From Eunapius fragilis (lineage: Eukaryota > Porifera > Demospongiae > Spongillida > Spongillidae), in assembly GCA_963681505.1 (NCBI GenBank), contig OY811977.1, positions 1,773,717-1,837,716 of the forward strand: a stretch of DNA of 64,000 nucleotides, given 5' to 3'. Every line of letters begins with the position of its first letter. The first letter of the stretch is position 1. Shown here in pieces: positions 3,581-23,468 of this stretch. The position numbers and the translations under genes are program-made. Below the pieces are notes generated by a model that did no database searches, had not been told where the DNA came from, and saw only the letters and a list, made by a program, of their open reading frames with translations.

Positions 3581-3780
3581 TAATGGCAGTCCAGAGGGAT
3601 ATTAACGCCCTCTCCTCCATCTCCAACCCCTATCTATCCCGAAAGATGGACATCATCAGTTTTAGATGACTGACTGATCTAGCATCGATTGGTATATGAA
3701 TAAAATTATCTGTTCAAACCCACAAGTGCAAGGGACGAGTGATAAACATTTATAAATACTGACGTGCTAGTATTAGTCTT

Positions 3781-3848
3781 GAGGTCCGATGGCTAGGGTT
3801 ATCTTCTTGTTGAAATCTACCCCTATCCGCTCACTTGACCTCTTGTTT
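3781..3848 (+). ncRNA. Y RNA-like gene, copy 1
   Basis: Y RNAs are small Pol III transcripts bound by the ring protein Ro60 (in RNA quality control) and implicated in DNA replication initiation. The body starts GAGGTCCGATGG and ends CACTTGACCTC followed by T-rich sequence. GAGGTC pairs with GACCTC as the outer stem, and GGCTAGGG pairs with CCCTATCC (one mismatch) as the upper stem, leaving a T-rich loop after GGGTTATC. Vertebrate Y RNAs share GGUCCGAUGG...GGGUUAUC and a 3' ACUUGAC followed by a U run; nematode sbRNAs share the UUAUC loop. TATAAATA at 3751-3758 sits exactly 30 bp before the RNA and a PSE-like block CACAAGTGCAAGGGACGA lies at 3721-3738, the layout of a type 3 Pol III gene. The terminator is interrupted (TTG then TTTTTTT). 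Predicted RNA is about 62-68 nt, nearer nematode sbRNA than vertebrate length. Confidence 0.9.
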
Positions 3849-4120
3849 TTTTCTTTTTTTTTCTCAGTTTCATAATGAAATGGAAGTACTTCCTACTTTA
3901 TTTCTATCGACCGATAACAAACACAAACCACACGTAAGTGTTCGTCCCTACGTTACGTGCTGGCAGTCTGGAGCGATTGGCACAATTTCCGTACTTAGCA
4001 ATGCAACTGTTCCTAACTGGAATGATCCTTACTGAAGTAGATTAAGACGACCAACTACACTGCTATAATCCACAAGTGCAAGGGACGAACGAAAAACACT
4101 GACACGCTAGTATTACCTCC

Positions 4121-4187
4121 GAGGTCCGATGGCTAGGGTTATCTTCTTGTTGAAAACTACCCCAATCTGCTCACTTGACCTCTTTTT
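4121..4187 (+). ncRNA. Y RNA-like gene, copy 2, promoter lacking TATA
   Basis: The RNA body is well kept, with GAGGTCCGATGGCTAGGG, GACCTC and T5. The upper 3' arm is changed to CCCCAATCTG, which weakens the upper stem. The PSE-like block is at 4071-4088, but the 10 bp that hold TATAAATA in other copies are deleted. I infer that this copy is transcriptionally weak or silent. Confidence 0.82.
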
Positions 4188-4257
4188 CTTCCATATTGAA
4201 ATAAGTCGTTAGGGCATAGCCGATCACTTCTGTATTCGTCCCTATGTTACATGCTGA

Positions 4258-5154
4258 CACACCAGAAGACCACAAAGTGACCTGGCAGCCAAGGGGGACA
4301 AGGGGAGATCATGTGATGCTGCAATGGCACTTACAAATAGCTAAAGAGATGGAAACATGAAGGGGAGAAGGTGAGAGGAGATGGTGGAAAGGATGGGGAG
4401 GAGGAAAGCAAGGGGGAGGGACGACAGAGAGGAGGTGGCCTGTATGCTTTGTGAATATGAACGTACCTCCATGAATACAATGAACAACAGGGTGTGGTTA
4501 AACATATAGTGTGTGTGTGTAGTGTATGTGTGGGCAAAAATAAACCACACACATGCAAGCATGCACCACACACACACACACATACCACATGCTGCCAAGC
4601 AAAATACTCACACACATGCAAATATACACCACAAACACACACACACACATACACACACATACATGCAAACATTAGTCCGTTCTATCTGATAACCACACAT
4701 GGCCACTCCTCCATTCACCATGGTTACTACCCCATTCACCATGGTTACTCCTCCTCCATCATGGCCCGCCACTTCCCCTCCATTACCTCATAGCAATGAG
4801 GAGTTATAACAAAGTTCACTAAGCAACAAAATTTGGCCAAGGAGAGGGACATTGTCTTCATGGTTGTACTGAGTTTTTGAACCAAAACAAGTGAATTTTG
4901 GTACAGGAGGTGTGGTTTTTCATTCCAGCAGTTCTGGTCTCCAGTCCGGCATGCTCCATATGTGACATGCTGGTCCACCCCTGGGTGTCTGATGGTGTTC
5001 ACCTGACATCTCCCGAGATCATATACCAGTGGAGATGTGTGTGTGTGGGGGGGGGGGGGCAGGATGGATGTGTGGAGATGTGGACATGTGGGTGTGTGGA
5101 TGTGTGCCTCTGTGGACATGTGGATGTGTGGATTTGTGCCTGTGTAGATGTGTG

Positions 5155-5223
<69 letters not shown>

Positions 5224-5350
5224 ATTGAGGGCAGTGTGAAGTATGCTTTCACTTTCAGGTGGTTTAGAGATTCGATGAATGTTTGTTTGGTTTCCATTTA
5301 AACCAGAAATGAGTACAATACTGGACCTCATAATACTCCACACCACCTTT
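4258..5350. repeat. Duplicated block, copy 2 (A, C-F; B missing)
   Basis: Block A (4258-4500) is joined through CA tracts directly to blocks C-F; block B is missing. A perfect (TG)n of about 65 bp lies at 5157-5221. Confidence 0.65.
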
Positions 5351-5627
5351 GGTTATAGAGTAATATGCTGTAGAGTAATATATGCCTTCACTCTCTGTAC
5401 AAGTGCTATGCAATCTTCGCAATGGCTGTCCAGAAGGAGACATGCCCAATTAACGCCCTCTCCTCCATCTCCAACCCCTATCTATCCCGAAAGATGGACA
5501 TCATCAGGTTTAGATGTGACTGATCTAGGCATCGATTGGTGTATGAATAAAATTATCTATTCAAACCCACAAGTGCAAGGGACGAGTGATAAACACTTAT
5601 AAATACTGACGCGCTAGTAATACTTCC

Positions 5628-5692
5628 GAGGTCCGATGGCTAGGGTTATCTTCTTGTTGAAATCTACCCCTATCCGCTCACTTGACCTCTTT
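5628..5692 (+). ncRNA. Y RNA-like gene, copy 3
   Basis: Body GAGGTCCGATGGCTAGGGTT to CACTTGACCTC, followed by TTTCTTTC. TATAAATA is at 5598-5605 (30 bp upstream) and the PSE-like block at 5568-5585. All conserved Y elements are present; the first T run is only three long, with longer runs from 5700. Confidence 0.88.
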
Positions 5693-6438
5693 CTTTCTCT
5701 CTTTTTTTTTTTTTTTTCCCAGCTTCATTATAAATGGAAGTACTTCTTCTTTATTTCTATCGAAAAGCTAAAACCAATAACAAACACAAACAACACGTAA
5801 GTGTTCGTCCCTACGTTACGTGATGGCAGTCTGGAGCGATTGGCACAATTTCCGTACTTAGCGATGCAACTGTTCCTAATTAACTGGAATGATACAACTG
5901 TTCCTAACTGGAGTGATCCTTACTGAAGCAGATTAGGACGACCAACGTAAAAAGTGAGTCTGCGTATACACTGCTATGCGTTCAACATTTGTCAAATTGT
6001 TATACCTTCAAACTGGTCAATATGCATGCAACAATGTACACTGCTATGACTTCAGGCTAAACATAGTGTACACTTGTAGAATGTACACACAACAATGTAC
6101 ACTGATATGCTGTAGAGTAGTATATGCCTTCACATTCTGTACAAGTGCTATGCAATCTTCTTAATGGCAGTCCAGAGGTATACATGCCCAATTAACGCCC
6201 TCTGACCCCATCTCCATCCCCTATCTATATCCCGAAAGATGGACATCATCAGGTTCAGATGACTGACTGCAATCGGGACAAGCGTTGCAACACATGTGTG
6301 ACATTATAAGTGCAAGGATTTAGGCATTGTGATTGGTATATTAAAAATTATCTGTTCAAATACACAACTGCAAGGGACGAATAAAAAACCATTTATGAAT
6401 ACTGACAGTATAACTAACGTCCACACGCATTGTTTTTA

Positions 6439-6746
6439 TATGAACAAGTAAATAAAAACATTCTCTAACGAGAAAGTTGGTGGGCATATAGGATTGACAA
6501 TGTTGGTGTAAAAAGCACGGAAACAAGTGTGACAGAAATGTTACTGGAAAATTGAAATAGGCCTATATTTAGCCCATTTTCTCAGGCGTGCGCTGCCTAA
6601 ATGTGACTGGGCTAAATATAGGCCTATTTCAATTTTCCAGTAACATTTCTGTCACACTTGTTTCCGTGCTTTTTACACCAACATTGTCAATCCTATATGC
6701 CCACCAACTTTCTCGTTAGAGAATGTTTTTATTTACTTGTTTCATA
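6439..6746. mobile_element. Foldback (MITE-like) element, family FB1 copy 1
   Basis: Two arms of about 138 bp are near-perfect reverse complements around a loop at about 6577-6607. Outer ends read TGAACAAGTAAATAAAAAC and its complement. Apart from its unique loop it codes for nothing. A related element lies at 62412-62697, which shows that this is a family and not a local inversion. The hairpin is long enough to give dsRNA if transcribed. Confidence 0.88.
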
Positions 6747-7225
6747 AGTTTTTTTTTCTTTTTTTTATTAAGAACTTGCTAGAACTTGCTAGATGGCCAT
6801 AGAACTTGCAACAAAATAGGGTATTTCTCGCTGTAGTTTCTTTCTAGATGTGATATGTGTCCAAATGACATGCTAGGATAACGTGCCGGTAAATTCTGAA
6901 GAGATTGGTACTATTTTCGTTCTTTAAAACCGTTCGTAGCTCGAGTTATACCTTCCTAAGGAAGACGACGACGACGACGACGACGACGACGAACAATTTT
7001 TTTGGGAATGGGCACGAGAAGCAGGTTCTTTGTTTGTCTGGAAGCGCATAGTTTAATGACATGAAACTAGCATGAAAACGTAGATCTTGGTGTTGTCGTT
7101 CGATTGCTGCAACGAGATAAGTGATCCGTTTCTCCGTTGTCCCTCCCGACGCGATTTAAAATTTTTAATGACATTCATCATTCCTCAATCAATCCTATAT
7201 TGAACCTGCTGACGCAGGTTCAGAT
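6747..7225. other. Unique insertion with (GAC)n run and terminal hairpin
   Basis: Sequence not shared with the flanking blocks. It includes a (GAC)n run at about 6962-6991 and a hairpin TGAACCTGC/GCAGGTTCA at 7201-7222 just before the block sequence resumes. Probably another non-autonomous insertion; no ORF of note. Confidence 0.45.
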
Positions 7226-7304
7226 AAAATTATTTGCTCAAACCCACAAGTGCAAGGGACGAACGAATAACATTTATAAATACTGACTCGCCAGTACTAT
7301 TAAC

Positions 7305-7363
7305 GAGGTCCGATGGCTAGGGTTATCTATGAACACTACCCCTATCCGCTCACTTGACCTTTT
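7305..7363 (+). ncRNA. Y RNA-like gene, copy 4 (short loop)
   Basis: GAGGTCCGATGGCTAGGGTT, a shortened apical loop (TATCTATGAACA), then CTACCCCTATCC and CACTTGACC followed at once by TTTT. TATAAATA is at 7275-7282 and the PSE-like block at 7245-7262. Size variation is confined to the loop, as expected for a selected stem-loop RNA. Confidence 0.87.
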
Positions 7364-7998
7364 ACCTTTTTTACATCCCCCGCTCCCCCAACCCCCCCCC
7401 TCTGTTTTTATCGTTACCGACCAGTAACAAACAATGTCCGTACTTTACAACTGTTCCTTAAGTTGACTAGGACGACCTAGTCTGGGGACCAACTGATGGT
7501 TGTCCCATGCAGACATCAGGTTAAGGATGACCAACGTAAAACAAAGACTGCATGAGTATACACTGTGATGCCTTCACACTAAATATAGTGTACACTTGTA
7601 CAATGTACACTACACAATGGTGTGCACTTCAATATACTCACACTACAATGTACACTGATATGCCTTCACACTGCTGTGCCTTCATACTGCTGTACAAGTG
7701 CTTAGCTATGCAATGTCCTTAATGGTTTAATGTCCTTAGCCATGCAATGTCCTTAATGGTGAAGGACATGCCTAATTAATGCCCTAGACTTCTCCATCTC
7801 CATATCCTATCTATACCAAACGTTTGACATCATCAGGTTAAGATGATTGATTGATCATGGTGAGCGTCTCTGAACAACGCGTGAACAACGCACACATGCG
7901 TGACTTAATGCAAGGGTTTATACATTATTTGTTGAAACCCACAAGTGCAAGGGACAAACTGAAACATTTATAAATACTGACGCGCTAGTATTATTTCC

Positions 7999-8064
7999 GA
8001 GGTCCGATAGCTAGGGTTATCTTCTTGTTGAAACTACCCCTATCCGCTCACTTGACCTCTTTTT
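7999..8064 (+). ncRNA. Y RNA-like gene, copy 5
   Basis: GAGGTCCGATAG (second G of the usual GATGG changed to A), then CTAGGGTTATC, CTACCCCTATCC, CACTTGACCTC and T5. TATAAATA is at 7969-7976 and the PSE-like block at 7940-7957 (GGGACAA in place of GGGACGA). Confidence 0.87.
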
Positions 8065-8137
8065 CTTCCATATTAAAGTATGTCATTAGGGCATAGCTGA
8101 TCACTTCTGTATTCGTCCCTATGTTACATGCTGACAC

Positions 8138-8662
8138 ACCAGAAGACCACAAAGTGACCTGGCAGCCAAGGGGGACAAGGGGAGATCATGTGATGCTATG
8201 GGGCTTACAAATAGCTAAAGAGATGGAAACATGAAGGGGAGAAGGTGAGAGGAGATGGAGGAAAGGATGGGGAGGAGGAAAGCAAGGGGGAGGGGACAAC
8301 AGAGAGGAGGTGGCATGTATATTTTGTGAATATCAACGTACCTCCATGAATACAATGAACAACAGGGTGTGGTTGGTGAAGTAAGGAATGGCAGAAGACC
8401 ACTAACCCATCCAGTTGGTACTGATGTCAGCAGTGGGCACACGTCTGATGTCGGGGTTTTGTGGGTGTAAGAGGATGCTCTGCAGAATGGTCTTCACCAC
8501 TGTGAGGTCAATCATGGCACCCTGAGGGGGAGAGGAGGAAGAAGGGTTATAGAACACCAGCAATGCATGATGAAAATCTCCATTCACAGCACACACAAAT
8601 ATAGTGTGTGTGTGTGTAGTGTATGTGTGTGCAAACATAAACCACACACATGCAAGCATACA

Positions 8663-8731
<69 letters not shown>

Positions 8732-9440
8732 CAAGCATTAGTCTTTCTGTCTGTCCCTCAGCCAAAGTTGAAGTCCCTACTTTGTAGGGGATCGAGGGGA
8801 GTGTGCATGTTGAACCAGTGCCCCCCACTGACAGATGTGGTAGCCTTTGGCATGGCTCCTTATCATCCAATTAAAACAACATTCCAGTACACAAAGGCTT
8901 GGTAGCCAATTGTATTACCAGCACCTGGCTTGCGGCTTGGCACAAGGTATCCATGGTGATGTGTGAAGCCTTTACATCATGAAGAAGCAGAGCCCTCTGA
9001 TTGGTGGGGATGCAAAGGAGGAAATCCACTGCCAAAGCCTGAAGATGAATTGCCTGACTTTTGTTATGGTTGGAATTGATGGAGATGCTGTCACAGTGAC
9101 TTAATATCACGTCATTGATTTGTTGTGTTCAGATCCACTTTACCTTCACCTCCATTACCTCATGATAACCACACATGGCCACTCCTCCATTCACCGTGGT
9201 TACTACTCCATTCACCGTGGTTACTCCTCCTCCATCATGGCCCGCCACTTCCCCTCCATTACCTAATAGCAATGAGGAGTTATAAACTAAGTTCACTAAT
9301 CAACGAAGTTTGGCCAAGGAGAGAGGCATTGTCTTCATGGTTGTACTGAGCTTTTGAACCAAAACAAGTGAATTTTGGTACAGTAGGTGTGGTTTTCCAT
9401 CCCAGTAGTTCTGGTCCCCAGTCCGGCATGCTCATTATAT
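8138..9440. repeat. Duplicated block, copy 3 (A-D)
   Basis: Blocks A to D in order; E and F are absent and sequence related to 23000-23100 follows at about 9440. A (CA)n of about 75 bp at 8665-8738 fills the place of the TG tract seen in copy 1. On the minus strand, block A (8342-8521) reads as an exon-like segment with a pyrimidine-rich 3' splice site and a GTACGT 5' splice site. Confidence 0.65.
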
Positions 9441-9732
9441 CTACTCTATCTACTTAACCACAATTCAATTCGTTGATGTCGTACTTAATGAATTCACGTC
9501 TAGTTACGAAAATAGAATGTGATTTTGGATAGTTTAAGAATCTATCCCGAAATTGAGACATCATCAGATACTAACTGGATCGTGAATACATGCGTGACCT
9601 TTTAATTGCAAGGATTTAGGCATTGATTGGTACATGAATACAAGCATCTGAATAAAATTATCTGTTCAAACCCACAAGTACAAGGGACGACAGAAAAAAA
9701 TTTATAAATACTGACGCGCCAGTAATGCTCCC

Positions 9733-9840
9733 GAGGTCCGATGGATAGGGTTATCTATGAATGCTACCCCTATACGGCTAGGGTTATTTACCCTACCAGG
9801 GTTATCTTCACTACCCCTATCTGCTCACTTGACCTTTTTT
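9733..9840 (+). ncRNA. Y RNA-like gene, copy 6, expanded 100-nt variant
   Basis: Starts GAGGTCCGATGGATAGGG and ends CACTTGACC plus T6. The middle is expanded by two further partial copies of the upper-stem sequence (GGCTAGGGTTATTTACCC, then AGGGTTATC...CTACCCCTATC). TATAAATA is at 9703-9710 and the PSE-like block at 9673-9690. The result is about 102 nt plus the U run, within the size range of vertebrate Y RNAs (about 84-112 nt). GGATAGGG/CCCCTAT pairs better than the usual GGCTAGGG arm. Confidence 0.85.
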
Positions 9841-10533
9841 CCCCCTACGTCTTTAGGACACATCCGATCACTTCTGTCTTTATGCAGAAGACCACAATAA
9901 CGATACCAGTATCGGGCCTGGTTTAGGTGTGGATTGTCGCTGCGACGTCGCATCGCAGGAATAGAATCCCAACCATTGCGTCGCAACGCGGGGCTGTTGC
10001 GTCATATTGTGAACCAGGCTTAAGGGAAAGGGAAAAGGTTTCCCTACGTTACGTGCTTACATCTTCAATAAGGATCACTCAGAAACAGTGGTCAATCTCT
10101 CCAGTCTCAGTAAACGTAAAAAGTGACACTGAGTATATACTGCTATGCCTTCAAAATATGGCCTTCAAAATATGTCAAATGTACACTGCGATGCCTTCAA
10201 CATTTGTCAAATGTACACTGTTATGCCGTCGCACTGGTGTACACTTCATTACGCACACAACAATATGCTCACAACAATGTACACTTTCACACTGCCACTG
10301 TTGTACAAGTGCTATGCCTTCACACTGCTGCACACACTGATATGACACTGGAGTAGAAGTCCACACTAGCAGGTGTACACTTCAATACATGCACGTACAA
10401 TGCTATGCTTTCATACTGCTGTAAAAGTGCTGGCCTTTGCACTGCCTTGCCTTAACGCTGGTGTACACTGCTATACTTACACAGCAATGTACACCGCTAT
10501 GTCCTTGCACTGCTGGGAGGAGGGAAGAGGAAG

Positions 10534-11224
10534 AGGTAGTAGAGGGGGGGAGGGAGGGGGAGGGGGGGAGGGAGGGGGAGGGAGGGGAGGGGGGGAGGGA
10601 GGGGGAGGGAGGGGGAGGGGGGGAGGGAGGGGGAGGGAGGGGAGGGGGAGGGAGGGGGAGGGAGGGGAGAGGGAGGGGAGAGGGAGAGGGAGAGGGAGAG
10701 GGAGAGGGAGAGGGAGAGGGAGAGGGAGAGGGAGAGGGAGAGGGAGAGGGAGAGGGAGAGGGAGAGGGAGAGGGAGAGGGAGAGGGAGAGGGAGAGGGAG
10801 AGGGAGGGGGAGAGGGAGAGGGAGAGGGAGAGGGAGAGGGAGAGGGAGAGGGAGAGGGAGGGAGAGGGAGAGGGAGAGGGAGAGGGAGAGGGAGAGGGAG
10901 AGGGAGGGAGAGGGAGAGGGAGAGGGAGAGGGGAGGGAGAGGGAGAGGGAGAGGGAGAGGGAGAGGGAGAGGGAGAGGGAGAGGGAGAGGGAGAGGGAGA
11001 GGGAGAGGGAGAGGGAGAGGGAGAGGGAGAGGGAGAGGGAGAGGGAGAGGGAGAGGGAGAGGGAGAGGGAGAGGGAGAGGGAGAGGGAGAGGGGGAGGGG
11101 GAGGGAAGAAGGGGGGGAGGAAGGGGGAGAGAGGGGGTTGGAGGGAGGGAGGGGAGGGAGGGGGAGGGAGGGGAGGGAGGGGAAGGGATGGGAGGGGAGG
11201 GGTGGGGGAGGGAGAAAGGGGGAG
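10534..11224. repeat. (GAGGGA)n and GGGA-rich purine tract, about 690 bp
   Basis: Almost pure purine on the plus strand, with GAGGGA 6-mers from about 10670 to 11098 flanked by GGGGGA variants. Long open frames on both strands here are artefacts of the repeat. Such tracts can form triplex or G-quadruplex DNA. The matching place in copy 2 (24060-24375) is a different, shorter GGGA/GGAA tract. Confidence 0.95.
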
Positions 11225-11403
11225 ATAATGGGGTGATACATGGGTGTTGTATTCTGTGGTCTTTTAAAAGACTCAAGTTTTTTGTTGTGCCTTGCCCTCT
11301 ATTGAGGGTTGATGAATGGTCTCAATGTGAGTGATTTGGTAACTCAGGAGTTATCATTCCCGTACTTTGACAGGTGAAGTCTTTGAAATGACTGTATTCT
11401 TAC

Positions 11404-11800
11404 CGGGATAGATTACTGGGTGGGGCGGATAGATTACTGGGTGGGGCGGATAGATTACTGGGTGGGGCGGATAGATTACTGGGTGGGGTGGATAGATTAC
11501 TGGGTGGGGCGGATAGATTACTGGGTGGGGCGGGAAGGTTGCTTTGTATGAACTCAATTTTGTGCATAGTTTTGATGTTGTATATTGTACAGAACACATG
11601 GTTACAGCACTCATACATCTACATCTGTTATATGTTTCACTTGTGTGGTCCCCACAGCATATACAAGTTACCTGCTGGGAGCTGACCAGCCAACACCTGT
11701 ATTCAAACAATGCAATTACTTACCATACTTACGGGTTCTTGGGGTTGCCAGGGTGGTTTGGGTTGCTGTGGTGAAGCATGGGTGGGGTGAAATGTGCAAA
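11404..11800 (-). CDS. Putative exons of a proline-rich 7-residue-repeat protein
   Basis: Three exon-like pieces on the minus strand. The first, 11800-11733, follows TTCCCTGCAG and is bounded by GTAAGTATGG. The second, 11696-11672, lies between GAATACAG and GTAACTTG. The third, 11541-11404, ends CCCG with a strong donor GTAAGAATAC. The third consists of six 21-bp repeats reading as HPVIYPP (or NLSAPPS in another frame). Its acceptor (CATACAAAG) is weak, and I cannot show that the pieces share a frame. Copy 2 (24557-24690) keeps the donor but has only three repeats. Treat as a candidate only. Confidence 0.25.
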
Positions 11801-12239
11801 CTGCAGGGAATGAACATGTTGCCTCTATTGGTCATTTGAGCTAATATTGTGTATGAAAGTCAGATTGCATAGCCGTTGATACAGCCCAGTACCTGGTGTT
11901 ATGTCTCCCAGCCATGTTTGAAGCCTTACCGTTGACCATTAATGGTGGTGGTGGTATTGCTTGGCACAAATATGATAACTTGGCCGTGTGTTGGGATTTG
12001 CAGTGTGTGTGTGTGGGTGGGGGGGGGGGGGGGGGGGGGGAGCTTTTATGGATCTAAACTACTCCAAGCATGTACATGTATCACACAAAAAGGAGCTCAA
12101 AATGAAGAATTGAATTTTTGAAGATGGATTTATAACCTACACTTCGGTACAGACTGTATGTGATCTATCAGAATAGAATGTCTATTTCAGAATGTGGTTG
12201 GATATCAATATTGTGGGAGGGTGATAAATATATATGAAT

Positions 12240-12489
12240 ACACTTCCCCTCCATTACCTCACAGTAATGAAGAGTTATAACTAAGTTCACTAAGCAACAA
12301 AATTTGGCCAAGGAGGGGGATATGGTTGCACTTAGTTTTTGAACCAAAACAAGTGAATTTTGGTACAGGAGGTGTGGCTTTCCATCCTAGTAGTTCTGGT
12401 CCCCAGTCCAGGATATGCTGGTCCATCCCTGGGTGTCTGATGGTGTTAACATGACGTCTCACAAGATCATATACCAGGTGGAGATGTGT

Positions 12490-12531
<42 letters not shown>

Positions 12532-13110
12532 GGGTGGGTGGGGGATGGACAAGTCTGTCGTGTTGAGTTGAGGATGTGTGCACCTGTATGTGTGTGTGCC
12601 TGTGTGGATGTGTGGACATGTGGACATGTGGATGTGTGGACATGTGGACATGTGGATGTGTGGACATGTGGACATGTGGATGTGTGGATGTGTGCCTCTG
12701 TGGACATGTAGATGTGTGGATGTGTGCCTCTGTGGACATGTGGATGTGTGGATGTGTGCCTCTGTGGACATGTGGATGTGTGGATGTGTGCCTCTGTGGA
12801 CATGTGGATGTGTGGATGTGTGCCTCTGTGGACATGTGGATGTGTGGATGTGTGCCTCTGTGGACATGTGGATGTGTGGATGTGTGCCTCTGTGGACATG
12901 TGGATGTGTGGATGTGTGCCTCTGTGGACGTGGATTTGTGCCTGTGTAGATGTGTGTGTGTGCATTGAGGGCAGTGTGAAGTGTGCGGGCAATGGCCTCG
13001 AAGCGTGGATGGTACATTTGGTTTCCACTTAAACCAGAAATGAGTGCAATACCTGACCCTATAATACACCACACAACCTTTGGCTAATGGTATCTGGGTT
13101 AAAAACTGGT
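12240..13110. repeat. Duplicated block, copy 4 (D-F) with 32-bp minisatellite
   Basis: Blocks D, E and F with an expanded TG-rich centre. At about 12600-12926 a 32-bp unit (GCCTCTGTGGACATGTGGAT plus 12 more bases) is repeated about seven to eight times, preceded by shorter TGTGGACATG units. ORFs through it are repeat artefacts. Confidence 0.75.
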
Positions 13111-13264
13111 TGAATCGGCCGAAAAGTTGGACATCATCAGGTTCAGATGAATGACTGATCGTTAGGCATCGATTGATATATGAATAAAATTATTTGTTCA
13201 CACCCACAAGTGCAAGGGACGAATGAAAAACATTTATAAATACTGACGTGCTAGTATTAGATGT

Positions 13265-13334: not shown

Positions 13335-13940
13335 CTTTTCCCAGTTTCATTATAAATGGACCAATAACAAACACAAACAACTTGGAAGCGTTCATCTCTA
13401 CGTTACATGCTGGTAGAGTCTGAAGCGATTGGCACAATTTCTGAAGCGATTGGCACAATTTCCGTACTTAGCAGTGCAACTGTTCCTAACTGGAGTGATA
13501 GAACTGTTCCTGTACACTTCAATATACCCACACAACAATGCATACTGATATGCCTTCCACACTGCTGTAGAAGTGATATGCCACAAGTGTTCGTTCCTAC
13601 ATTACATGCTGACTGAGCCAGAAGCAATTGGCACAATGTCTGTTGTTTACAACTGTTCCTAACACGAGTGATCCTTACTGAAATCTTCAGGAAGTAGATT
13701 AGGATGACCAACGTAAAAAGTGAGACATGCGTATACACTGCTATGCCTTCAACATTTGTCAAATGTACACTGCTATGCCTTCAACATTTGTCAAATGCAC
13801 ATTGATATGCCTTCACACTGGTCAATACGCACACAACAATGTACACTGATATGCCTTCACACTAAACATAGTGTACACCTGTACAATGTACACTACACAA
13901 TGGTGTGCACTTCAATATACTCACACCACAATGTACACTG

Positions 13941-14213
13941 ATAGAAGATAGAGTATGGCGCCGAAGGCGCCAAGTACGGCGCCGAAGGCGCCCCCGTCCA
14001 CCAAGATGGCGGTTATTAAGGAAGGGGTGAGTTATAAGTTTCAATGAAGAGTGTCGGGAGGGAGGGACGGGTGCAATTTGAGGGCGGATTCGGAGAGGGG
14101 GTGAAAAGTTGGGTCGGCGTAGCGGGCCTTCGGCCCGCGGGGCCTTCGGCCCCCCCTAAGCCCTAAGCCCTAACTTTTTCTTCTACCACTCACAGTCCTT
14201 CGGACTGTTTATA
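13941..14213. mobile_element. GC-rich insertion with five TTC/GAA-loop hairpins
   Basis: This insert splits an iteron phrase that is uninterrupted near 7650 ('acactgatatgccttcacac'), so that site shows its ends. It carries five perfect hairpins: GGCGCCGAAGGCGCC at 13957-13971 and 13978-13992, GCGGGCCTTCGGCCCGC at 14122-14138, GGGGCCTTCGGCCCC at 14139-14153, and CAGTCCTTCGGACTG at 14193-14207. As RNA, three are C(UUCG)G tetraloops. It also has three copies of CCCTAAG. Composition is unlike its surroundings. Similar hairpins occur in GC-rich organelle repeats of some lineages; origin here is unknown. Confidence 0.7.
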
Positions 14214-14510
14214 TCATGCCTTCACACTGCTGTGCCTTCATACTGCTGTACAAGTGCTTAGCTATGCAATGTCCTTAATGGGTTTAATGTCCTTGGCCAT
14301 GCAATGTCCTTAATGGCTGTCCAGAAGGATACTTGCCCAATTAATGCCCTCTTCTCCATCCTCTATCTATATCAAAGTTCGACATCATCAGGTTAAGATG
14401 ATTGACTGATCATCGTGAACATCTCTGAACAACGCATGAACAACAAACACACGCGTGACCGCAAGGGTTTAGCATCGATTGGTATATGAATAAAATTATC
14501 TGTTCACACC

Positions 14511-14552
14511 CACAAGCGCAAGGGACGAACGATAAACATTTATAAATACTGA
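14511..14552 (+). promoter_or_regulatory. Orphan Y RNA promoter (no RNA body)
   Basis: CACAAGCGCAAGGGACGA (14511-14528) and TATAAATA (14541-14548) have the normal Y promoter spacing, but the sequence switches at about 14552 to 'ggcactgaatagctag', shared with 17933-17945 and not part of a Y RNA. A recombination breakpoint removed the RNA. Confidence 0.75.
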
Positions 14553-14569
14553 GGGCACTGAATAGCTAG

Positions 14570-15850
14570 CTGATGTTTGTCTGCAGTGGAGAAGGCCCAA
14601 CTCTTTGCTTTGCTGAGACAGGCAAAAGGCATCACACAGCCTCATGGCTCCGTCCATCACAGGTCACCACTACCCAAAGAGTACATGACCACACCCTCTT
14701 ACATCGTTTGTTTTTCCCCATGAGTTAGTGTTATAGCCTCAGCCAAAGTTGAAGTCCCTACTTTGTAGGGGATTGAAGGGAGTGTGTGTGTTGGACCACC
14801 ACCCCCCTCCCCAACTGACAGATGTGGTAGCCCTTGGCATGGTTCCTTATCATCCAATTACCAGTGCACAAAGCCTTGGTAGCCAATTGCATTACCAGCA
14901 CCTGGCTGGCTTGCAGCTTGGCATGAGGTATCCATGGTGATGTTTGGAGCCTTTGCATGCGCGAAGAAGCAGAGCCCTCTGATTGGTGGGGATGCAAAGG
15001 AGGAAATCCACTGCCAAAGCCTGAAGATGAATTGCCTGACTTTTGTTATGGTTGGAAAGAATGGAGTTGATGGAGATGATGTCACAGTGACTCAATATCA
15101 CGTTAATGATTTCAATCTTGTGTTCAGATCCACTGTACCTTCACCTCCATTACCTCATGATAACCACACATGGCCACTCCTCCATTCACCATGGTTACTA
15201 CCCCATTCACTGTGGTTACTCCTCCTCCATCATGGCCACTTGCCAACCTCATAGCAATGAGGAGTTATAACTAAGTTCACTAAGCAACAAAATTGGACCA
15301 AGGAGGGGGATATGGTTGTACTTAGTTTTTGAACCAAACAAGTGAATTTTGGTACTGGAGGTGTCGTTTTCCATTCCATTAATTCTGGTCCCCAGTCCGA
15401 GATATGCTAGTCCATCCCTGGGTGTCTGATGGTGTTCACCTGACATCTGCTGAGATCATATACCATGTCAGTGGAGATTGTGTATGTGTGTGTGGGGGGG
15501 GGGGGGGGGGAGGGGGGTGGACAAGTCTGTCTTGTCAAGCTGAGGTTGTGTGCACCTATGTGTGTCTGTGCCCATGTGGATGTGTGGATTGTGCTTTTGT
15601 GGATGTGTGGATGTGTGGACATGTGTGTGTGTACATTGAGGGCAATGGCCTTGAAGTATGCTTTCACTTTCTGGTGGTTTAGAGATTCAATGTACCATTT
15701 AAACCAGAAATGAGTACAATACTGGACCTCATAATACTACACATAACCTTTGGCTAAAGGTATCTGGGTTAAAACTGACTGTTGATATTATTACTTGTTT
15801 GAGGAGCTTCTCTGAAGATGAGTGAGGCCAGATTCAGATACACTAAACTT
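14570..15850. repeat. Duplicated block, copy 5 (B-F)
   Basis: Blocks B to F in standard order, without A. The TG tract in E is replaced partly by a G run (15494-15511). Confidence 0.65.
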
Positions 15851-16264
15851 TCCCTGCGCTCACCATGGCTACCTATCCATTACCTCACAATGACCACTCC
15901 TCCTTTCATCCTGGCTACACCTCAATCACATCATGAAGTCAGCATATTGTCATAGCCATGAATGTTGTACCAAAAAGTCATTTGTAGTTTAGGAGGTGTG
16001 GTTACAAGTCTAGTAGTCCAATCCAGTGATTTATACCAATCTTCTTAATCAATGGCGGATGCGTGCTCAATTAATGCCCTCTTCTCCATCTCCATCCCCG
16101 TAAGTTTGACCTCATCAGGTTCAGATGATTGACTAATGTCGTTGAACAACGAACAGGTGCGTGATCTTACAAGTGCCCCGGATGAAAAGATTATTTGTTC
16201 AACCCACAATTGCAAGGGACGAACGAGAATCATTTATAAATATTGACGCATTAGTATTACTTGC

Positions 16265-16326
16265 GAGGTCCGATGGTTAGGATGATCTCTGAAATCTACC
16301 CCTATCCGCTCACTTGACCTCTTTTT
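16265..16326 (+). ncRNA. Y RNA-like gene, copy 8 (loop motif changed)
   Basis: GAGGTCCGATGG is followed by TTAGGATGATC in place of CTAGGGTTATC, so the conserved GGGTTATC is lost, while CACTTGACCTC and T5 are intact. TATAAATA is at 16235-16242; the PSE-like block at 16205-16222 reads CACAATTGCAAGGGACGA. Confidence 0.78.
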
Positions 16327-16383
16327 ATTTTATCGTCAATGCCATTATAAATGAAGTAGTTCTGTCTTTATCTTTATCTCGGA

Positions 16384-16412
16384 AAACTACCCCTTTCCGC
16401 TCACTGGACCTC
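16384..16412 (+). pseudogene. Y RNA 3'-half fragment
   Basis: Only the 3' arm is present (ACTACCCCTTTCCGCTCACT then GGACCTCTTC), following 'ctttatctcgg'. No 5' arm or promoter. The same fragment type recurs at 19774 and 21712. Confidence 0.7.
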
Positions 16413-17149
16413 TTCTTATTTTATTTTATTTTCACCAATTGCATTATGAATGAAGTACTTTGTCCCTATCGATCAAATGACAAACACAAACAACAACAAC
16501 ACGCAAGCGTTCGTCCCTACATATCATGCTGGCAGTCTGAGCGATTGGCACAATCTCCGTACTTTACAACTGTTTCTGATCCTCACTAAAGTAGACTACG
16601 ACAACCAACGTATAAAAAGTGAATTCAACATTTGTCAAATGAACCCTGCTATAATTATGCCTTCATACTGGTGTACACTGCTACGTACGGCTTCACACAG
16701 TTGTAGAATTGTCAAATGTACACTGTTATGCCTTCAAACTGGTGTACACTTCAACTGACACGCACGCAACAATGCACACTGATATGCCTTCACATTATTA
16801 CACTACACAATGTGTACACTTCAATACAACCGCAATGCACACTGATATGCTGTAGAGTGATATGTGCCTTCACGCTCTGTACAAGTGCTACGCAGTGTTC
16901 TTAATGGCTGTCCAGAAGGATGCTTGCCCAATTAATGCCCTCTTCTCCATCTCCATCTCCTATCTATATCAAAGATTGACATCACCATGTTAAGATGATT
17001 GACTGATCATAGTCGACATTGCATGAACAACAAAAACATGCGTGACCGCAAGGTCGATTGATATATGAATAAAATTATCTGTTCACACCCACAAGCGCAA
17101 GGGACGAACGATAAACATTTATAAATACTGACGCGTTAGTATTACTTCT

Positions 17150-17219
17150 GAGGTCCGATGGCTAGGGTTATCTTCTTGTTGAAAACTACCCCTATCCGCT
17201 CCCTTGACCTCTTCTTTTT
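17150..17219 (+). ncRNA. Y RNA-like gene, copy 9
   Basis: GAGGTCCGATGGCTAGGGTT, CTACCCCTATCC, then GCTCCCTTGACCTC (A to C in the usual CACTTGAC) and TTCTTTTTT. TATAAATA is at 17120-17127 and the PSE-like block at 17090-17107. The changed base lies in the conserved Ro60-binding lower stem region. Confidence 0.85.
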
Positions 17220-17284
17220 TTTTTTCCTCTCCCCATATTGAATTACGTCGTTTTGTGATCATTTTTATCTTCGTCCGTACGTTA

Positions 17285-18854
17285 CGTGCTGACACACCAG
17301 AAGACCACAAAGTTACCCGGCAGCTAAGGAGGACAAGGGGAGATCATGTGATGCAATATGGGGCTTACAAGCTAAAGAGATGAACAGGAAGGGGAGGAGG
17401 TGAAGGAAAGGATGGGGAGAAGAAAAGCAAGGGGAAGGGACGTCGGAGAGGAGCTGGTGTGTGTATTTTGTGAATACCAGCAACGTACCTGCATGAATAC
17501 AATGAACAACAGGGTGTGGTTGGTGAAGTAAGGAATGGCAGAAGACCACTAACCCATCCAGTTGGTACTGATATCAGCAGTGGGTGTGCAAGTCTGATCA
17601 GATGTCGAGGACTTGTGGGTGTAAGAGATGTTCTGCAGAATGGTCTTCACCTCTGTGAGATCAATCATGGCACCCTGAGGGGGAGAGGAGGAAGAAGGGT
17701 TATAGAACATCAGCAATGCATGATGAAAATCTCCATTCACAGCACGCACACACACACACACACACACCAAACATATAGTATGTGTGTATAGTGTATGTGT
17801 GTGCAAACATAAGCCACACACACACATACACACACACATATGCAAACATAAGTCTTTCTGTCTGTTTGACTGCCCATAGAACTATAATATTTCACAGAGT
17901 TCATGAAAAATTAGAATATCACTCACGGCTCCGAATAGCTAGCTGATGTTTGTCTGCAGTGGAGGAGGCCCAACTCTTTGCTTTGCTGAGACAGGCAAAA
18001 GGCATCACACAGCCTCATGGCTCCATCCATTACAGGTCATCGCTACCCGAAGAGTACATGACCACACCCTCTTACATTGTTTGTTTTTTCCCATGGTTAG
18101 TGTTATAGCCTCAGCCAAAGTTGAAGTCCCTACTTTGTAGGGAATTGGGGGGAGTGTGGTGTTGGATCCCCTCCCACCCCCCCCCCCCCACCCCCAACTG
18201 ACAGATGTGGTATCATCCAATTAAACAGCATTCCGGTGCACAAAGGCTTGGTAGCCAATTGTATTACCAGCACCTGGCTGGCTTGCAGCTTGGAATGAGG
18301 TATCCATGGTGATGTTTGAAGCCTTTGTATCACGAAGAAGCAGAGCCCTCTGATTGGTGGGGATGCAAAGGAGGAAATCCACTGCCAAAGCCTGAAGATG
18401 AATTGCCTGACTTTTGTTATGGTTGGAAAGAACATGGAGTTGATGGAGATGTCACAGTGACTCAGTATCTCGTTAATGATTTCAATTTTGTGTTCAGATT
18501 CATGGAATGTACTTCCATTACCTCAAGATAACCACACATGACCACTCCTCCATTCACCATGGTTACTACTCCATTCACCGTGGTTACTCCTCCTCCATCA
18601 TGACCTGTCACTTCCCCTCCATTACCTCATAGTAACAAGGAGTTATAACTAAGTTCACTAAGCAACAAAAATTGACCAAGGAGGGGGTAATGGTTGTACT
18701 AAGTTTATGAGCCAAACAAGTGAATTTTGGTACTGGAGGTGTGGTTTTCCTTTCAGTTAGTTCTGGTCCCCAGTCCAGGATATCCTGGTCTATCCCTGGG
18801 TGTCTGATGGTGTTCACCTGACATCTCCCGACAACATATACCAGGTCAGTGGAG

Positions 18855-18927
<73 letters not shown>

Positions 18928-19480
18928 GTTGAGGTTGTGTGCACCAATATGTGTGTGTGCCTGTGTGGAGTGTGGATGTGTGGATGTGTGGATTGTGCTT
19001 TTGTGGACACATGCCTGTGTGTGTACATTGAGGGCAATGGCCTTGAAGTGTGTTTTCACTTTCAGGTGATTTAGAGATTCAATGGATGTTTGTACCATTT
19101 AAACCAGAAATGAGTACAATACTGGACCTCATAATACTCCACACAACCTTTGGCTAAAGGTATCTGGCTTAAAAACTGACTGTTAATATTATTACTTGTT
19201 TGAGGAGCTTCTCTGAAGATGAGTGAGGCCAGATTCAGATACACCAAACTTTCCCTGCGCTCACCATGGCTACCTATCCATTACCTCACAACGACCACTC
19301 CTCCTTTCATCCTGGCTATACCTCAATCACATCAAGAAGTCAGCATATTGTCATAACCATGAATGTTGTACCAAAAAGTCATTTGCAGTTTAGGAGGTGT
19401 GGTTACAAGTCTAGTAGTCCAATCCAGTGATTTATACCAATCTTCTTAATGGCGGATACTTGCTCAATTAATGCCCTCTT
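17285..19480. repeat. Duplicated block, copy 6 (A-F)
   Basis: Complete A-F order like copy 1. On the minus strand, block A holds an exon-like segment 17674-17489 with acceptor CTCCCCCTCAG and donor GTACGT, open except for one TAG that other copies share. A (GT)n of about 67 bp is at 18858-18925. Confidence 0.65.
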
Positions 19481-19654
19481 CTCCATCTCCATCCCCGTAA
19501 GTTTGACCTCATCAGGTTCAGATGATTGACTAATGTCGTTGAACAACTAACAGGTGCGTGATCTTACAAGTGCGAAACGATTATTTGTTCAACCCACAAT
19601 TGCAAGGGTCGAACGAGAAACATTTATAAATACTGACGCGTTAGTATTACTTCT

Positions 19655-19718
19655 TAGGTCCGATGGTTAGGGTTATCTTGGAAAAACTACCCCCTATCCG
19701 CTCACTTGACCTCTTTTT
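19655..19718 (+). ncRNA. Y RNA-like gene, copy 10
   Basis: Starts TAGGTCCGATGG (first G of the outer stem replaced by T, losing one pair), then TTAGGGTTATC, CCCTATCC, CACTTGACCTC and T5. TATAAATA is at 19625-19632 and the PSE-like block at 19595-19612 (CACAATTGCAAGGGTCGA). Confidence 0.85.
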
Positions 19719-19773
19719 ATTTTATCGTCAAAACCATTATGAATGAAGTAGTTCTGTCTTTATCTTTATCTCG

Positions 19774-19808
19774 GAAAACTACCCCTTTCCGCTCACTTGA
19801 CCTCTTCT
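19774..19808 (+). pseudogene. Y RNA 3'-half fragment
   Basis: GAAAACTACCCCTTTCCGCT then CACTTGACCTC. The 5' arm is absent, so no stem can form. Confidence 0.7.
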
Positions 19809-20391
19809 TTTATTTTAATTTTCACCAATTCCATTATGAATGCAGTACTTTGTCCCTATCGACCAAATGACAAACACAAACAACAACAACACGCAAGCGT
19901 TCGTCCCTACATATCATGCTGGCAGTCTGAGCGATTGGCACAATCTCCGTACTTTACAACTGTTCCTAACCCGGGTGATCCTCACTAAAGTTTAAGTAGA
20001 CTACGACAACCTACGTAAAAAGTGAATTCAACATTTGTCAAATGAACCCTGCTATAATTATGCCTACATACTGGTGTACACTGCTACGCCTTCACACAGT
20101 TGTAGAATTGTCAAATGTACACTGTTATGCCTTCAAACTGGTGTACACTTCAACACGCACACAACAATGCACACTGATATGCCTTCACGTTATTACACTA
20201 CACAAAGTGTACACTTCAATACAACAATGCACACTGATATGCTGAGGAGTGATATGTGCCTTCACGCTCTGTACAAGTGCTACGCAGTGTTCTTAATGGC
20301 TGTCCAAAGGATATATGCCCTCTTCTCCATCTCCTATCTATCCTGAAAGTCGGATATCATCAGGTTCAGATAACTGGCTGATCGTGACTTT

Positions 20392-20781
20392 ATAAGACCA
20401 GTTGCGGCGCGAACGTTTATCGTTGGGATGGCCTTATAAGGCCATAATAACGACAAACGTGTTAGTCGTGGGCGTTAATTTCAGCGGCCATTTTGGTGGG
20501 CAAAATGTACAGGTGAGTATGGCCAAAATGGAATGGTCACGAGTTGTGTACAATCGGCAGAACAAATCGGTTCGAAAAGAATTGTGACAGGTAAACATTC
20601 AAATTTCTTACCGATAGCTAACTTTTTCGAACCGATTTGTTCTGCCGATTGTACACAACTCGTGACCATTCCATTTTGGCCCATACTCACCTGTACATTT
20701 TGCCCACCAAAATGGCCGCCGAAATTGACGCCCACGACTAACACGTTCGACGATAAACGTTCGCGCCGCAACTGGTCTATA
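20392..20781. mobile_element. Inverted-repeat (MITE-like) insertion of about 390 bp
   Basis: Arms starting AGACCAGTTGCGGCGCGAAC and ending with its complement are near-perfect inverted repeats around a short centre near 20585-20620. The left arm holds a 26-bp extra segment near 20425-20450. The uninterrupted paralogous site at about 22405-22425 ('gatcgtgactttattataag') shows that it inserted into the duplicated block. ORFs on both strands mirror each other because of the symmetry and are not genes. Confidence 0.85.
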
Positions 20782-20878
20782 CGTGCGATGTATTGGTATA
20801 TGAATATCTGTTCAAACCCACAAGGGCAAGGGTCGAATGAAAAACATTTATAAATACTGACGCGCTAGCATTACTTGT

Positions 20879-20939
20879 GAGGTCCGATGGCTAGGGTTAT
20901 CTTCCAAAAGTACCCCCCTATCCGCTCACTTGACCTTTT
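20879..20939 (+). ncRNA. Y RNA-like gene, copy 11
   Basis: GAGGTCCGATGGCTAGGGTT, a short loop (CTTCCAAAAG), then TACCCCCCTATCC, CACTTGACC and TTTT. TATAAATA is at 20849-20856; the PSE-like block at 20819-20836 reads CACAAGGGCAAGGGTCGA. Confidence 0.86.
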
Positions 20940-20959
20940 ATTTTTCATTTCCCCCTCCC

Positions 20960-21450
20960 CATCTTCTGTTCTCCTTTTGTGGATGTGTGGACATGTGCCT
21001 GTGTGTGTACATTGAGGGCAATGGCCTTGAAGTGTGTTTTCACTTTCAGGTGATTTAGAGATTCAATGTACCCTTTAAACCAGAAATGAGTACAATATTG
21101 GACCTCATAATACTCCACATAACCTTTGGCTAAAGGTATCTGGGTTAAAAACTGACTGTTAATATTATTACTTGTTTGAGGAGTTTCTCTATAGATGAGT
21201 GAGGCCAGATTCAGATACACCAAACTTTCCCTGCGCTCACCATGGCTACCTATCCATTACCTCACAATGGCCACTCCTCCTCTCATCCTGGCTACACCTC
21301 AATCACATCATGAAGTCAGCATATTGTCATAACCATGAATGTTGTACCAAAAAGTCATTTGTAGTTTAGGAGGTGTGGTTACAAGTCTAGTAGTCCAATC
21401 CAGTGATTTATACCAATCTTCTTAATGGCGGATACTTGCTCAATTAATGC
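20960..21450. repeat. Duplicated block, copy 7 (F and downstream only)
   Basis: Starts inside the TG-rich end of E and continues through F and the 'cctcaatcacatca' stretch shared with 15870-16030 and 19280-19440. Confidence 0.6.
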
Positions 21451-21570
21451 CCTCTTCTCCATCTCCATCCCCGTAAGTTTGACCTCATCAGGTTCAGATG
21501 ATTGACTAATGTCGTTGAACAACGAACAGGTGCGTGATCTTACAAGTGCGAAACGATTATTTGTTCAACC

Positions 21571-21657
21571 CACAATTGCAAGGGTCGAACGAGAAACATT
21601 TATAAATACTGACGCGTTAGTATTACTTCTCCCTATCCGCTCACTTGACCTCTTTTT
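21571..21657 (+). pseudogene. Y RNA-like gene with deleted 5' arm
   Basis: The promoter is intact (PSE-like 21571-21588, TATAAATA 21601-21608), but the body begins directly with CCCTATCCGCTCACTTGACC and T5. About 40 nt, including GGTCCGATGG, are deleted. If transcribed, the product could not form the Y stem. Confidence 0.8.
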
Positions 21658-21711
21658 ATTTTATCGTCAAAACCATTATAAATGAAGTAGTTCTGTCTTT
21701 ATCTTTATCTC

Positions 21712-21840
21712 GGAAAACTACTCCTTTCCGCTCACTTGACCTCTTTTTATTTTATCGTCAAAACCATTATAAATGAAGTAGTTCTGTCTTTATCTCTATC
21801 TCGGAAAACTACCCCTTTTCCGCTCACTTGACCACTTCTT
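21712..21840 (+). pseudogene. Two further Y RNA 3'-half fragments in tandem
   Basis: GGAAAACTACTCCTTTCCGC...TTGACCTCTTTTT near 21712-21757 and GGAAAACTACCCCTTTTCCG...TTGACCAC near 21802-21840. They sit in an about 90-bp tandem duplication. Confidence 0.65.
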
Positions 21841-22506
21841 ATTTTTTCACCAATTATGAATGAAGTACTTTGTCCCTATATCGACCAAATGACAAACAGA
21901 AACAACAATAACACGCAAGCGTTCGCGTCCCTACATATCATGCTGGCAGTCTGAGCGATTGGCACAATCTCCGTACTTTACAACTGTTCCTAACCCGAGT
22001 GATCCTCACTAAAGTAGACTACGACAACCTACGTAAAAAGTGAATTCAACATTTGTCAAATGAACCCTGCTATAATTATGCCTTCATACTGGTGTACACT
22101 GCTACGTACGCCTTCACACAGTTGTAGAATTGTCAAATGTACACTGTTATGCCTTCAAACTGGTGTACACTTCAACACGCACACAACAATGCACACTGAT
22201 ATGCCTTCACGTTATTACACTACACAAAGTGTACACTTCAATACAACAATGTACACTGATATGCTGAGGAGTGATATGTGCCTTCACGCGCTGTACAAGT
22301 GCTACGCAGTGTTCTTAATGGCTGTCCAAAGGATATATGCCCTCTTCTCCATCTCCTATCTATCCTGAAAGTCGGATATCATCAGGTTCAGAATACTGGC
22401 TGATCGTGACTTTATTATAAGTGGTATATGAATATCTGTTCAAACCCACAAGTGCAAGGGACGAATGAAAAACATTTATAAATACTGACATGCTAGCATT
22501 ACTTGT

Positions 22507-22568
22507 GAGGTCCGATGGCTAGGGTTATCTTCCAAAAGTACCCCCCTATCCGCTCACTTGACCTTTTT
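22507..22568 (+). ncRNA. Y RNA-like gene, copy 12
   Basis: GAGGTCCGATGGCTAGGGTT, a short loop like copy 11, TACCCCCCTATCC, CACTTGACC and a T run of about 19. TATAAATA is at 22477-22484 and the PSE-like block at 22447-22464. Confidence 0.87.
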
Positions 22569-23418
22569 TTTTTTTTTTTTTTCTCCCCACCATCTTCTGT
22601 CTTTGTCTCTATTGACCAATGACAAACACAGACAATACGTTACGTGCTGGCAGAGTCTGGAGCGATTGACACAATTTCCGAACTTTACAACTGTTCCTAA
22701 CTGGAGTGATACAACTGTTCCTAACTGGAGTGATCCTTATTGAAGTAGATTAGGACGACCAACGTAAAAAGGCGATTAAGCGAGTCTGAGTATACACTGA
22801 TCCATTCAACATTTTTCAAATGTCACACTGCTGCGCCTTCACACTGGTGTACACTTCAATACCTACACAACAATGCACACTGATATGCTGTAGAGTGACA
22901 CAGCAAAAAAAAAAAAAACGCGTCGAATCAATTCTTCATTTTCAATTGATTTTGTTAACAGTTTGTGGGAGGGAGGGGCTAATTGTATCTACTTAACCAC
23001 CGATTTGATGTGGAGCTAATGAATTCACGTCTAGCTACGAAAATAGAATGCGATTTTGGATAGTTTAAGAATAAGTAAGAGACCGAAACCTAGTAACTAT
23101 GATGACATCATAATTAAAAATCATGATCGCGGAAAAATCTGGGGCCCCTTGTCTACGCCCATGTGTAGAGTGATGTATGCCTTCACGCTCTGTACAAGTG
23201 ATTAATGGCTGTCCAGTAGGATACATGCCCAATTAATGCCCTCTCCTCCATCTCCCTCCCCTCTCCATCCCAAAAGTGAGACATCAGATGGCTGTCAATC
23301 GTGGGGTGACCTTATGCGTGAAGGATTTAGGCATTGATTGGTATATGGATACAATTATCTGTTCAAACCCACAAGTGCAAGGGACGAAACAAAAACATTT
23401 ATAAATACTGATGCGCCA

Positions 23419-23468
23419 GTGGTACGATGGTTAGGGTTTCTCTATCCGCTCACTTGACCTCTTTTTTT
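23419..23468 (+). pseudogene. Decayed Y RNA-like copy
   Basis: GGTACGATGG replaces GGTCCGATGG, the loop is deleted (TTAGGGTTTCTCTATCC), and TATAAATA (23400-23407) is only about 20 bp from the RNA start. CACTTGACCTC and T7 remain. Confidence 0.75.

Follow-up and report, generated by a model that had tools for sequence, protein, structure and literature searches.

What are the small, similarly built units that recur over some 20 kb of the Eunapius fragilis genome, and what would their products serve? They lie in a stretch of 64,000 nucleotides, here called the window (contig C7:1773717-1837716 of a 218.9-Mb, 24-contig genome), in which an original prediction had seen about 12 genes for Y RNAs, the partner RNAs of the RNA quality-control protein Ro60, with type 3 RNA polymerase III (Pol III) promoters. 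As judged from the sequence, the units form a genuine cluster of reduced, Y RNA-like genes, and they very probably encode mini Y RNAs dedicated to Ro60 that were multiplied by segmental duplication.

Layout of the cluster

The predicted gene number stood with a small correction: the window holds 12 full-length Y-like bodies and one shortened body (23419-23463), all on the + strand and together spanning 3781-23463. The motif GGTCCGATGG, with at most one mismatch, matches 15 times in the window, against 1.96 expected, and 13 of the 15 matches, without exception on the + strand, fall within 3783-23430. Likewise, CACTTGAC matches 17 times against 3.4 expected, with 16 matches inside the cluster. 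A 20-bp block resembling a proximal sequence element (PSE) matches 16 times with at most three mismatches, against 0.00 expected; three of these 16 units, at 6361, 14509 and 21569, are without a complete body, the last having its 3' part only. A covariance model seeded from 11 window bodies, which match by construction, recovered 13 window matches with E<0.001 as well as three remnants with E of 0.31-0.6, the match at 9733 covering only the first 56 nt of that body. Measured from stem to stem, the window bodies are 57-62 nt long, except for those at 9733 (104 nt) and in the short copy (43 nt). The features are as follows.

PSE 3719-3738 and TATAAATA 3751-3758, + strand: promoter elements of copy 1, in a layout common to the other intact copies
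3781-3848, + strand: Y RNA-like gene 1, 62-nt body and T run
4121-4187, + strand: Y RNA-like body 2, without TATA box, PSE at -52, no Rfam match at E<=10; probably silent
5628-5710, + strand: Y RNA-like gene 3, earliest run of four T (T4) at +75
6361-6380, + strand: PSE remnant with 3 mismatches, without TATAAATA and without Y body
7305-7364, + strand: Y RNA-like gene 4, short loop; its Rfam matches at E<=10 are Y_RNA and nematode RF01656 only
7999-8064, + strand: Y RNA-like gene 5, with GGTCCGATAG
9733-9841, + strand: Y RNA-like gene 6, upper arm internally repeated, 104-nt body
13265-13332, + strand: Y RNA-like gene 7, matched by the covariance model
14509-14548, + strand: orphan promoter unit (PSE and TATAAATA), no Y body downstream
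16265-16326, + strand: Y RNA-like gene 8, TGATC in place of the TTATC loop motif
17150-17226, + strand: Y RNA-like gene 9, with CTCCCTTGACC
19655-19718, + strand: Y RNA-like gene 10, +1 is T, not G
20879-20940, + strand: Y RNA-like gene 11, 20.0 bits to RF00019
21569-21835, + strand: promoter unit with a 5'-deleted body, then two more 3'-end remnants in tandem at about 91-bp spacing
22507-22582, + strand: Y RNA-like gene 12, 21.3 bits to RF00019
23419-23467, + strand: Y RNA-like copy shortened through an internal deletion, with TATA at -19; a probable pseudogene

Promoter and terminator

The promoter elements were found where they had been predicted. TATAAATA stands 30 bp upstream in 11 of the 12 full-length copies, the exception being 4121, which is without it; the PSE-like block, placed about 60 bp upstream in the original prediction, starts at -62 in 10 of the 12, at -61 in 7999 and at -52 in 4121. 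The claim of a type 3 Pol III promoter received strong support from the genome's own U6 promoter. The better U6 gene (U6a, 118 bits) has its CCCACAAGTG and TATAAATA exactly where the Y-like genes have their PSE and TATA elements, at -62 and -30 respectively, and its PSE shares a 10-bp core with theirs and differs outside those 10 bp. In the RNase P gene, CCCATAA lies 32 bp before TATAAATA, which is the same internal spacing, with both elements 7 bp farther from the start of the Rfam match. Since the PSE core and TATAAATA occupy identical positions in U6a, a U6-type, type 3 promoter is well supported for the Y-like genes. A T4 run was found near the stem end of all 13 window bodies, at most 13 nt past the stem, completing the Pol III arrangement of an external PSE/TATA promoter and a T-run terminator at the sequence level.

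We also searched the genome for other genes with the pattern TATA...GGTYCGA. Of 18 matches (backward control: 11), 14 fall on copies already described. Another three, on contigs C1, C4 and C12, proved on inspection to be a repeat unrelated to Y RNA and were rejected; the last, C7:1903779, lies outside the three inspected ones. The three repeat copies (L082-L084) are near-identical, with TATAAATA 24 bp before GGTTCGA and a TCTCGGCCCCAGACCC block close by.

RNA fold, family identity and the predicted Ro60 partner

The predicted RNAs are 57-64 nt long plus a U-tail, with one copy of about 104 nt. Folding of the 13 window bodies gave z-scores from -0.5 (the short copy) to -3.5, and only the short copy failed to form the outer stem; across 18 folded copies, 17 have an outer stem of at least five pairs, with 23419 as the exception. 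The cytosine at position 7 is invariant in the 16 aligned bodies and unpaired in 15 of the 18 folded copies, as a single bulge in 12 and within a larger internal loop in three (4121, 7999 and C1a); the exceptions are C7c, in which a 3' insertion shifts the bulge, C1c, in which U6 is bulged, and 23419. The sponge RNAs thus have the terminal stem with a single bulged C that marks the Y RNA / sbRNA superfamily (sbRNAs being the stem-bulge RNAs of nematodes), and they also have its GGUCCGA ... ACUUGACC pairing partners, with exceptions in C1c (GGUUCGA/AAUUUGACC), 17150 (CCUUGACC), C7c (an insertion in ACUUGACC) and 23419 (GGUACGA). The superfamily's UUA(U/C)C at the 5' side of the loop is likewise present, as TTATC in 14 of 16 bodies, with TGATC in the other two (16265 and C1a). 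The upper stem has the consensus GG(C/U)UAGGG (GGCUAGGG) / CCCUAUCC.

This upper stem bears on function. In vertebrate Y RNAs and in sbRNAs, the upper-stem GUG-CAC motif is described as essential for replication (PMC4726728, PMC4450293). Inspection by eye found A/GUG opposite CAC/U at this position in none of the 16 aligned bodies, which keeps the Y-like RNAs out of the subgroup of vertebrate Y RNAs and replication-competent sbRNAs. A role in DNA replication would fit the UUAUC loop motif of 14 of the 16 bodies, on which the in-vitro replication activity of sbRNAs depends (PMC4450293), and in two copies (16265 and C1a) AUG or GUG does face UAC where stem and loop meet. We nevertheless regard such a role as improbable, given the missing essential motif and the finding that the least variable part of the bodies is the putative Ro60 site. 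For the putative Ro60 site we hand-picked columns around the bulged C; among 12 distinct aligned bodies these vary in 11 of 858 pairwise cells (1.3%), against 283 of 850 (33%) in the loop, and the UUAUC columns vary in 6.1%. This is the pattern expected if Ro60 binding were under selection, and copy 9733, with its repeated upper arm, illustrates how freely the loop side can change. Because the upper stem, as read from the alignment, is without GUG-CAC, a motif required for the initiation of DNA replication, we predict that the Y-like RNAs work for Ro60 without taking part in replication.

Family membership was assessed with short-stretch scans of four stretches holding six copies against 4227 Rfam families under permissive filters. 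Y_RNA (RF00019) was the top match at 22505 (21.3 bits, E 0.25), 20877 (20.0 bits, E 0.55), 7303 (16.9 bits, E 0.17) and 9731 (19.5 bits, E 0.058), and in the stretch that includes copies 3781 and 4121 the sole match was to the nematode family RF01656 (ceN72-3_ceN74-2), which scored 16.0 bits (E 1.5) at 3777. Over these stretches RF00019 scored 16.9-21.3 bits and RF01656 15.1-16.3 bits, with E over all families from 0.058 to 9.8. In an end-match test against the Rfam Y_RNA consensus, run on six of the 18 copies, none of 5000 dinucleotide shuffles reached the score of 3781, 7305, 16265 or 20879, and none of 20000 random windows from 24-64 kb reached that of 3781. In the longer scan of 3500-24000, low-complexity microRNA matches outranked Y_RNA (E=3). 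At gathering thresholds, the Rfam scan of the window reported only a U2 gene and no Y RNA, and scans of five stretches of about 10 kb at or around the three loci that hold copies (see below) reported no Y RNA; a tRNA scan of the window found none. The covariance-model check proposed with the original prediction therefore had a divided outcome: one of the two expected families led in all four short stretches, and every score stayed below gathering. The low scores would also fit a different U6-type small RNA that shares Y motifs by chance. We hold this to be very improbable, because Y_RNA or RF01656 came top of 4227 families in four of four stretches, no shuffle in 5000 matched four of the six copies tested, and Ro60 is present in the genome. 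Y RNA identity is supported by Ro60 and the top-ranking families, though not by gathering-level scores.

The presence of Ro60 had been set as a check, and it was borne out twice over. A genome search placed TROVE matches on contig C13 only, as four exon pieces of two tandem genes at C13:625-632 kb (L001-L004, L085), each with four exons whose joined frames are open to the normal end; the stops reported by the search are intronic on a hand-built exon model. The first protein has 541 aa and scores 637 bits to 1yvp (query residues 10-541), 621 to 9nen and 341 to the bacterial Rsr 2nvo; we take 1yvp to be Xenopus Ro60 and 9nen human Ro60. The residues aligned to K170, R174 and H187 of 1yvp, presumably its Y RNA contacts, are kept, and both sponge proteins have DVSGSM in the C-terminal domain. 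The two are identical at 451 of 489 aligned residues, the second sequence being incomplete when compared. An intron minisatellite differs in length between the two genes. The tandem duplication of Ro60 may parallel the expansion of the Y RNAs.

Compared with known systems, the sponge RNAs share with vertebrate Y RNAs (RNY1/3/4/5) the lower stem GGUC-C-GA / ACUUGAC with its bulged C, the 5'-side loop sequence GGGUUAU, the U-tail, the Pol III type of gene, the small genomic cluster and Ro60 in the genome. However, human Y RNAs are 83-112 nt long (PMC4030889) against 57-64 nt here, the GUG-CAC upper stem is absent and the loop minimal in the sponge, and vertebrates have 1-4 Y RNA genes per species (PMC4726728) against 17 full copies here. 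Nematode sbRNAs, among which CeN72 is named (PMC4726728), have the same lower stem with bulged C, GGGUUAUC at the loop start and ACUUGACC on the 3' side, and they too are multi-copy (18-19 in Caenorhabditis elegans; PMC4726728, PMC4450293) and arranged in tandem arrays (PMC5745555), whereas the sponge upper stem is without their UG-CA core and RF01656 scores reach just 15.1-16.3 bits. CeY, to which the Ro60 orthologue ROP-1 binds in C. elegans (PMC4726728, PMC4450293), resembles the sponge RNAs in being without the vertebrate upper-stem motif; it differs, in a comparison by description and not by sequence, in being single copy against 17 full copies, and UUAUC is kept in the sponge. Bacterial Y and Yrl RNAs with Rsr also pair a Ro60-family protein with an RNA that keeps the bulged C (PMC4030889), but the sponge protein is of the animal type, as its scores to 1yvp and 2nvo indicate.

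Taken together, these features suggest a mechanism. Each copy would be an independent Pol III gene with a U6-type external promoter (PSE at -62, TATAAATA at -30) and a T-run terminator, and its product would be a 57-64-nt RNA with a U-tail (about 104 nt in one case) that folds as one predicted hairpin. The lower stem GAGGUC-C-GA / UU-GACCUC with its bulged C is the putative Ro60-binding site, as its conservation and the two Ro60 genes suggest, and the U-tail would bind La. Loaded Ro60 would then act in RNA surveillance and stress response, as the family does elsewhere.

Duplication, copy number and meaning

How did one gene become so many? The PSE has 28 matches genome-wide, against 5 in the backward control: 16 in the window, four at C1:18.408-18.413 Mb, four at C7:2.666-2.669 Mb and four elsewhere (L031-L034), the last with no Y body. 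The exact Y pattern has 12 matches against 0 in the backward control, nine in the window, two at the C1 locus and one at the second C7 locus. Across the genome, a single gene unit used as BLAST query gave at least 26 matches (E<=0.001), of which 25 fall within these three loci and one is a body fragment on C6. With three full bodies at the C1 locus and two at the second C7 locus, the 12 in the window make 17 full-length copies. Self-BLAST confirmed the predicted amplification with large genomic blocks: flanking blocks recur at 75-96% identity, inside the window as well as at the other two loci. The gene was thus apparently multiplied by kilobase-block duplication within contig C7 and to C1, which left some copies damaged. 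A full-length U2 small nuclear RNA gene also lies in the window (885-1074, - strand, 150 bits), one of 28 U2 matches genome-wide, 26 of them above gathering; a duplicate of its 5' end, together with the sequence upstream, sits next to the second C7 Y RNA locus (L038:1986-2196).

The dispersal of the copies and their variable flanks might recall a short interspersed nuclear element (SINE) or another mobile repeat derived from a Pol III gene. A SINE origin was rejected on the distribution of the BLAST matches, nearly all at three loci, and we give next to no credence to any mobile repeat: the copies have an upstream promoter, which retroposition would not copy, and the aligned flanks have no A-tails, no systematic search having been made for A-tails or target-site duplications. 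We also considered the C6 fragment as a retrocopy, which would point to transcription, and rejected this because it carries a DNA 3' flank and is hence a DNA-level fragment.

Block duplication raises a further alternative, in which one or a few working Y RNA genes are accompanied by passively duplicated pseudogenes that are alike through recency and gene conversion. The copies do sit within blocks of 75-96% identity, at least 4121 and 23419 are damaged, and 6361, 14509 and 21569 are remnants. Yet eleven window copies retain TATA at -30, PSE, body and T-run. In 12 pairwise copy comparisons (gaps excluded, with local alignment favouring similar flanks), mismatches amounted to 33/719 in bodies, 16/300 in the PSE, 4/144 in TATA, 45/322 in linkers, 63/452 in post-body DNA, 209/2611 upstream and 178/2968 downstream, so that PSE, TATA and body together differ at 53 of 1163 positions, against 108 of 774 in linkers and post-body DNA. 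Fisher values on these pairs are only descriptive, because the pairs share copies and are not independent. We consider such a set of mostly dead copies unlikely and retain Ro60-dedicated genes as the preferred reading.

Several observations weigh against that preference. Bodies are only modestly better kept than the duplicated flanks (33/719 vs 387/5579 mismatches, p=0.017 on non-independent pairs), and gene conversion could have contributed to their conservation. At the promoter, the PSE likeness to U6a is limited to about 10 bp, the second U6 match (U6b, 94 bits) has CCCACAAGCG at -55 and is without TATAAATA, RNase MRP has the TATA sequence TATAAAAG but no matching PSE, and copy C1a has no T4 run within the 200 bases read. 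In the RNA, GUG-CAC is missing from the upper stem, and the lower-stem region as a whole varies by 7.5%, near the upper stem's 8.9% (12 distinct bodies). Compensatory pairs numbered 0 under one structure and 1 under the other, not clearly above shuffles; such counts are uninformative here, since the paralogues are too similar, and the structure therefore rests on folding and homology. As to the family, neither RF00019 nor RF01656 reached the gathering score (38 bits; best 21.3), a whole-genome RF00019 scan returned nothing at E<=1 among 50 candidates scored, copy 4121 had no Rfam match at E<=10 in its short-stretch scan, and shuffles reached the score of C1c in 13 of 5000 cases and of 23419 in 1 of 5000.

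Elsewhere in the window, self-BLAST revealed a minisatellite of about 30-bp period (32729-34038), open in several frames. An AIG1/GIMAP-type GTPase reading frame occupies 41687-42781 (Pfam AIG1, 37.5 bits), and a 361-aa open frame (28182-29264) looks like a seven-helix receptor by eye, with no Pfam family at E<=0.01. Two frames at 43544-44389 (- strand) match DUF7869 weakly (25.2 and 22.8 bits, cut-off 26) and are perhaps a transposon remnant; a reverse transcriptase match at 53164-53592 (- strand) is likewise weak (20.8 bits against a cut-off of 29.6). Silicateins mark siliceous sponges, and in the genome, three of 14 scanned peptidase C1 loci (84 matches) have silicatein-like exons in which Ser replaces the catalytic Cys and Tyr replaces Trp, in the motifs CGASYAF (twice) and CGSSYAF (once), an S/Y pair common to 6zq3. 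The best PDB match of one such locus is silicatein alpha (6zq3, 49.1 bits), followed by 2vhs (CATHSILICATEIN, 47.2 bits) and cathepsin L1 (5i4h, 46.7); because this margin is narrow, the S/Y pair is the stronger silicatein sign. These exons indicate that the host is very probably a siliceous sponge, and probably a demosponge.

One study recorded tandem arrays of sbRNA genes in the majority of its nematodes (PMC5745555), and the sbRNA genes of C. elegans number at least 18 or 19. A cluster as such is therefore not new, and the original suggestion that its size is without precedent in such an animal needs softening. A 2009 survey knew Y RNAs from vertebrates and nematodes only (PMC2770079), a 2015 review added two insects and amphioxus (PMC4726728), and a tunicate survey did not find them and blamed sensitivity (PMC5006418). 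The matches listed in the open-licence literature included none that describes Y RNAs from a sponge or another non-bilaterian animal. A sponge Y RNA was predicted in general terms, by the proposal that organisms with Ro60 presumably also express Y RNAs (PMC4030889). If true, it would place Y RNAs near the base of animals, and the sponge copies would offer seed sequences for Y RNAs now missed by Rfam thresholds. Tentatively, and with somewhat more doubt than confidence, we suggest that Y RNAs predate bilaterians and that the sponge, in which both partners multiplied (17 full copies, tandem Ro60), represents a Ro60-only state without the GUG-CAC module; the Ro60 role would then be the older one, and the module would have been gained later or lost here. 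The sponge would in that case have a natural Y RNA with the Ro60 module and without the replication module, making the ancestral function directly testable.

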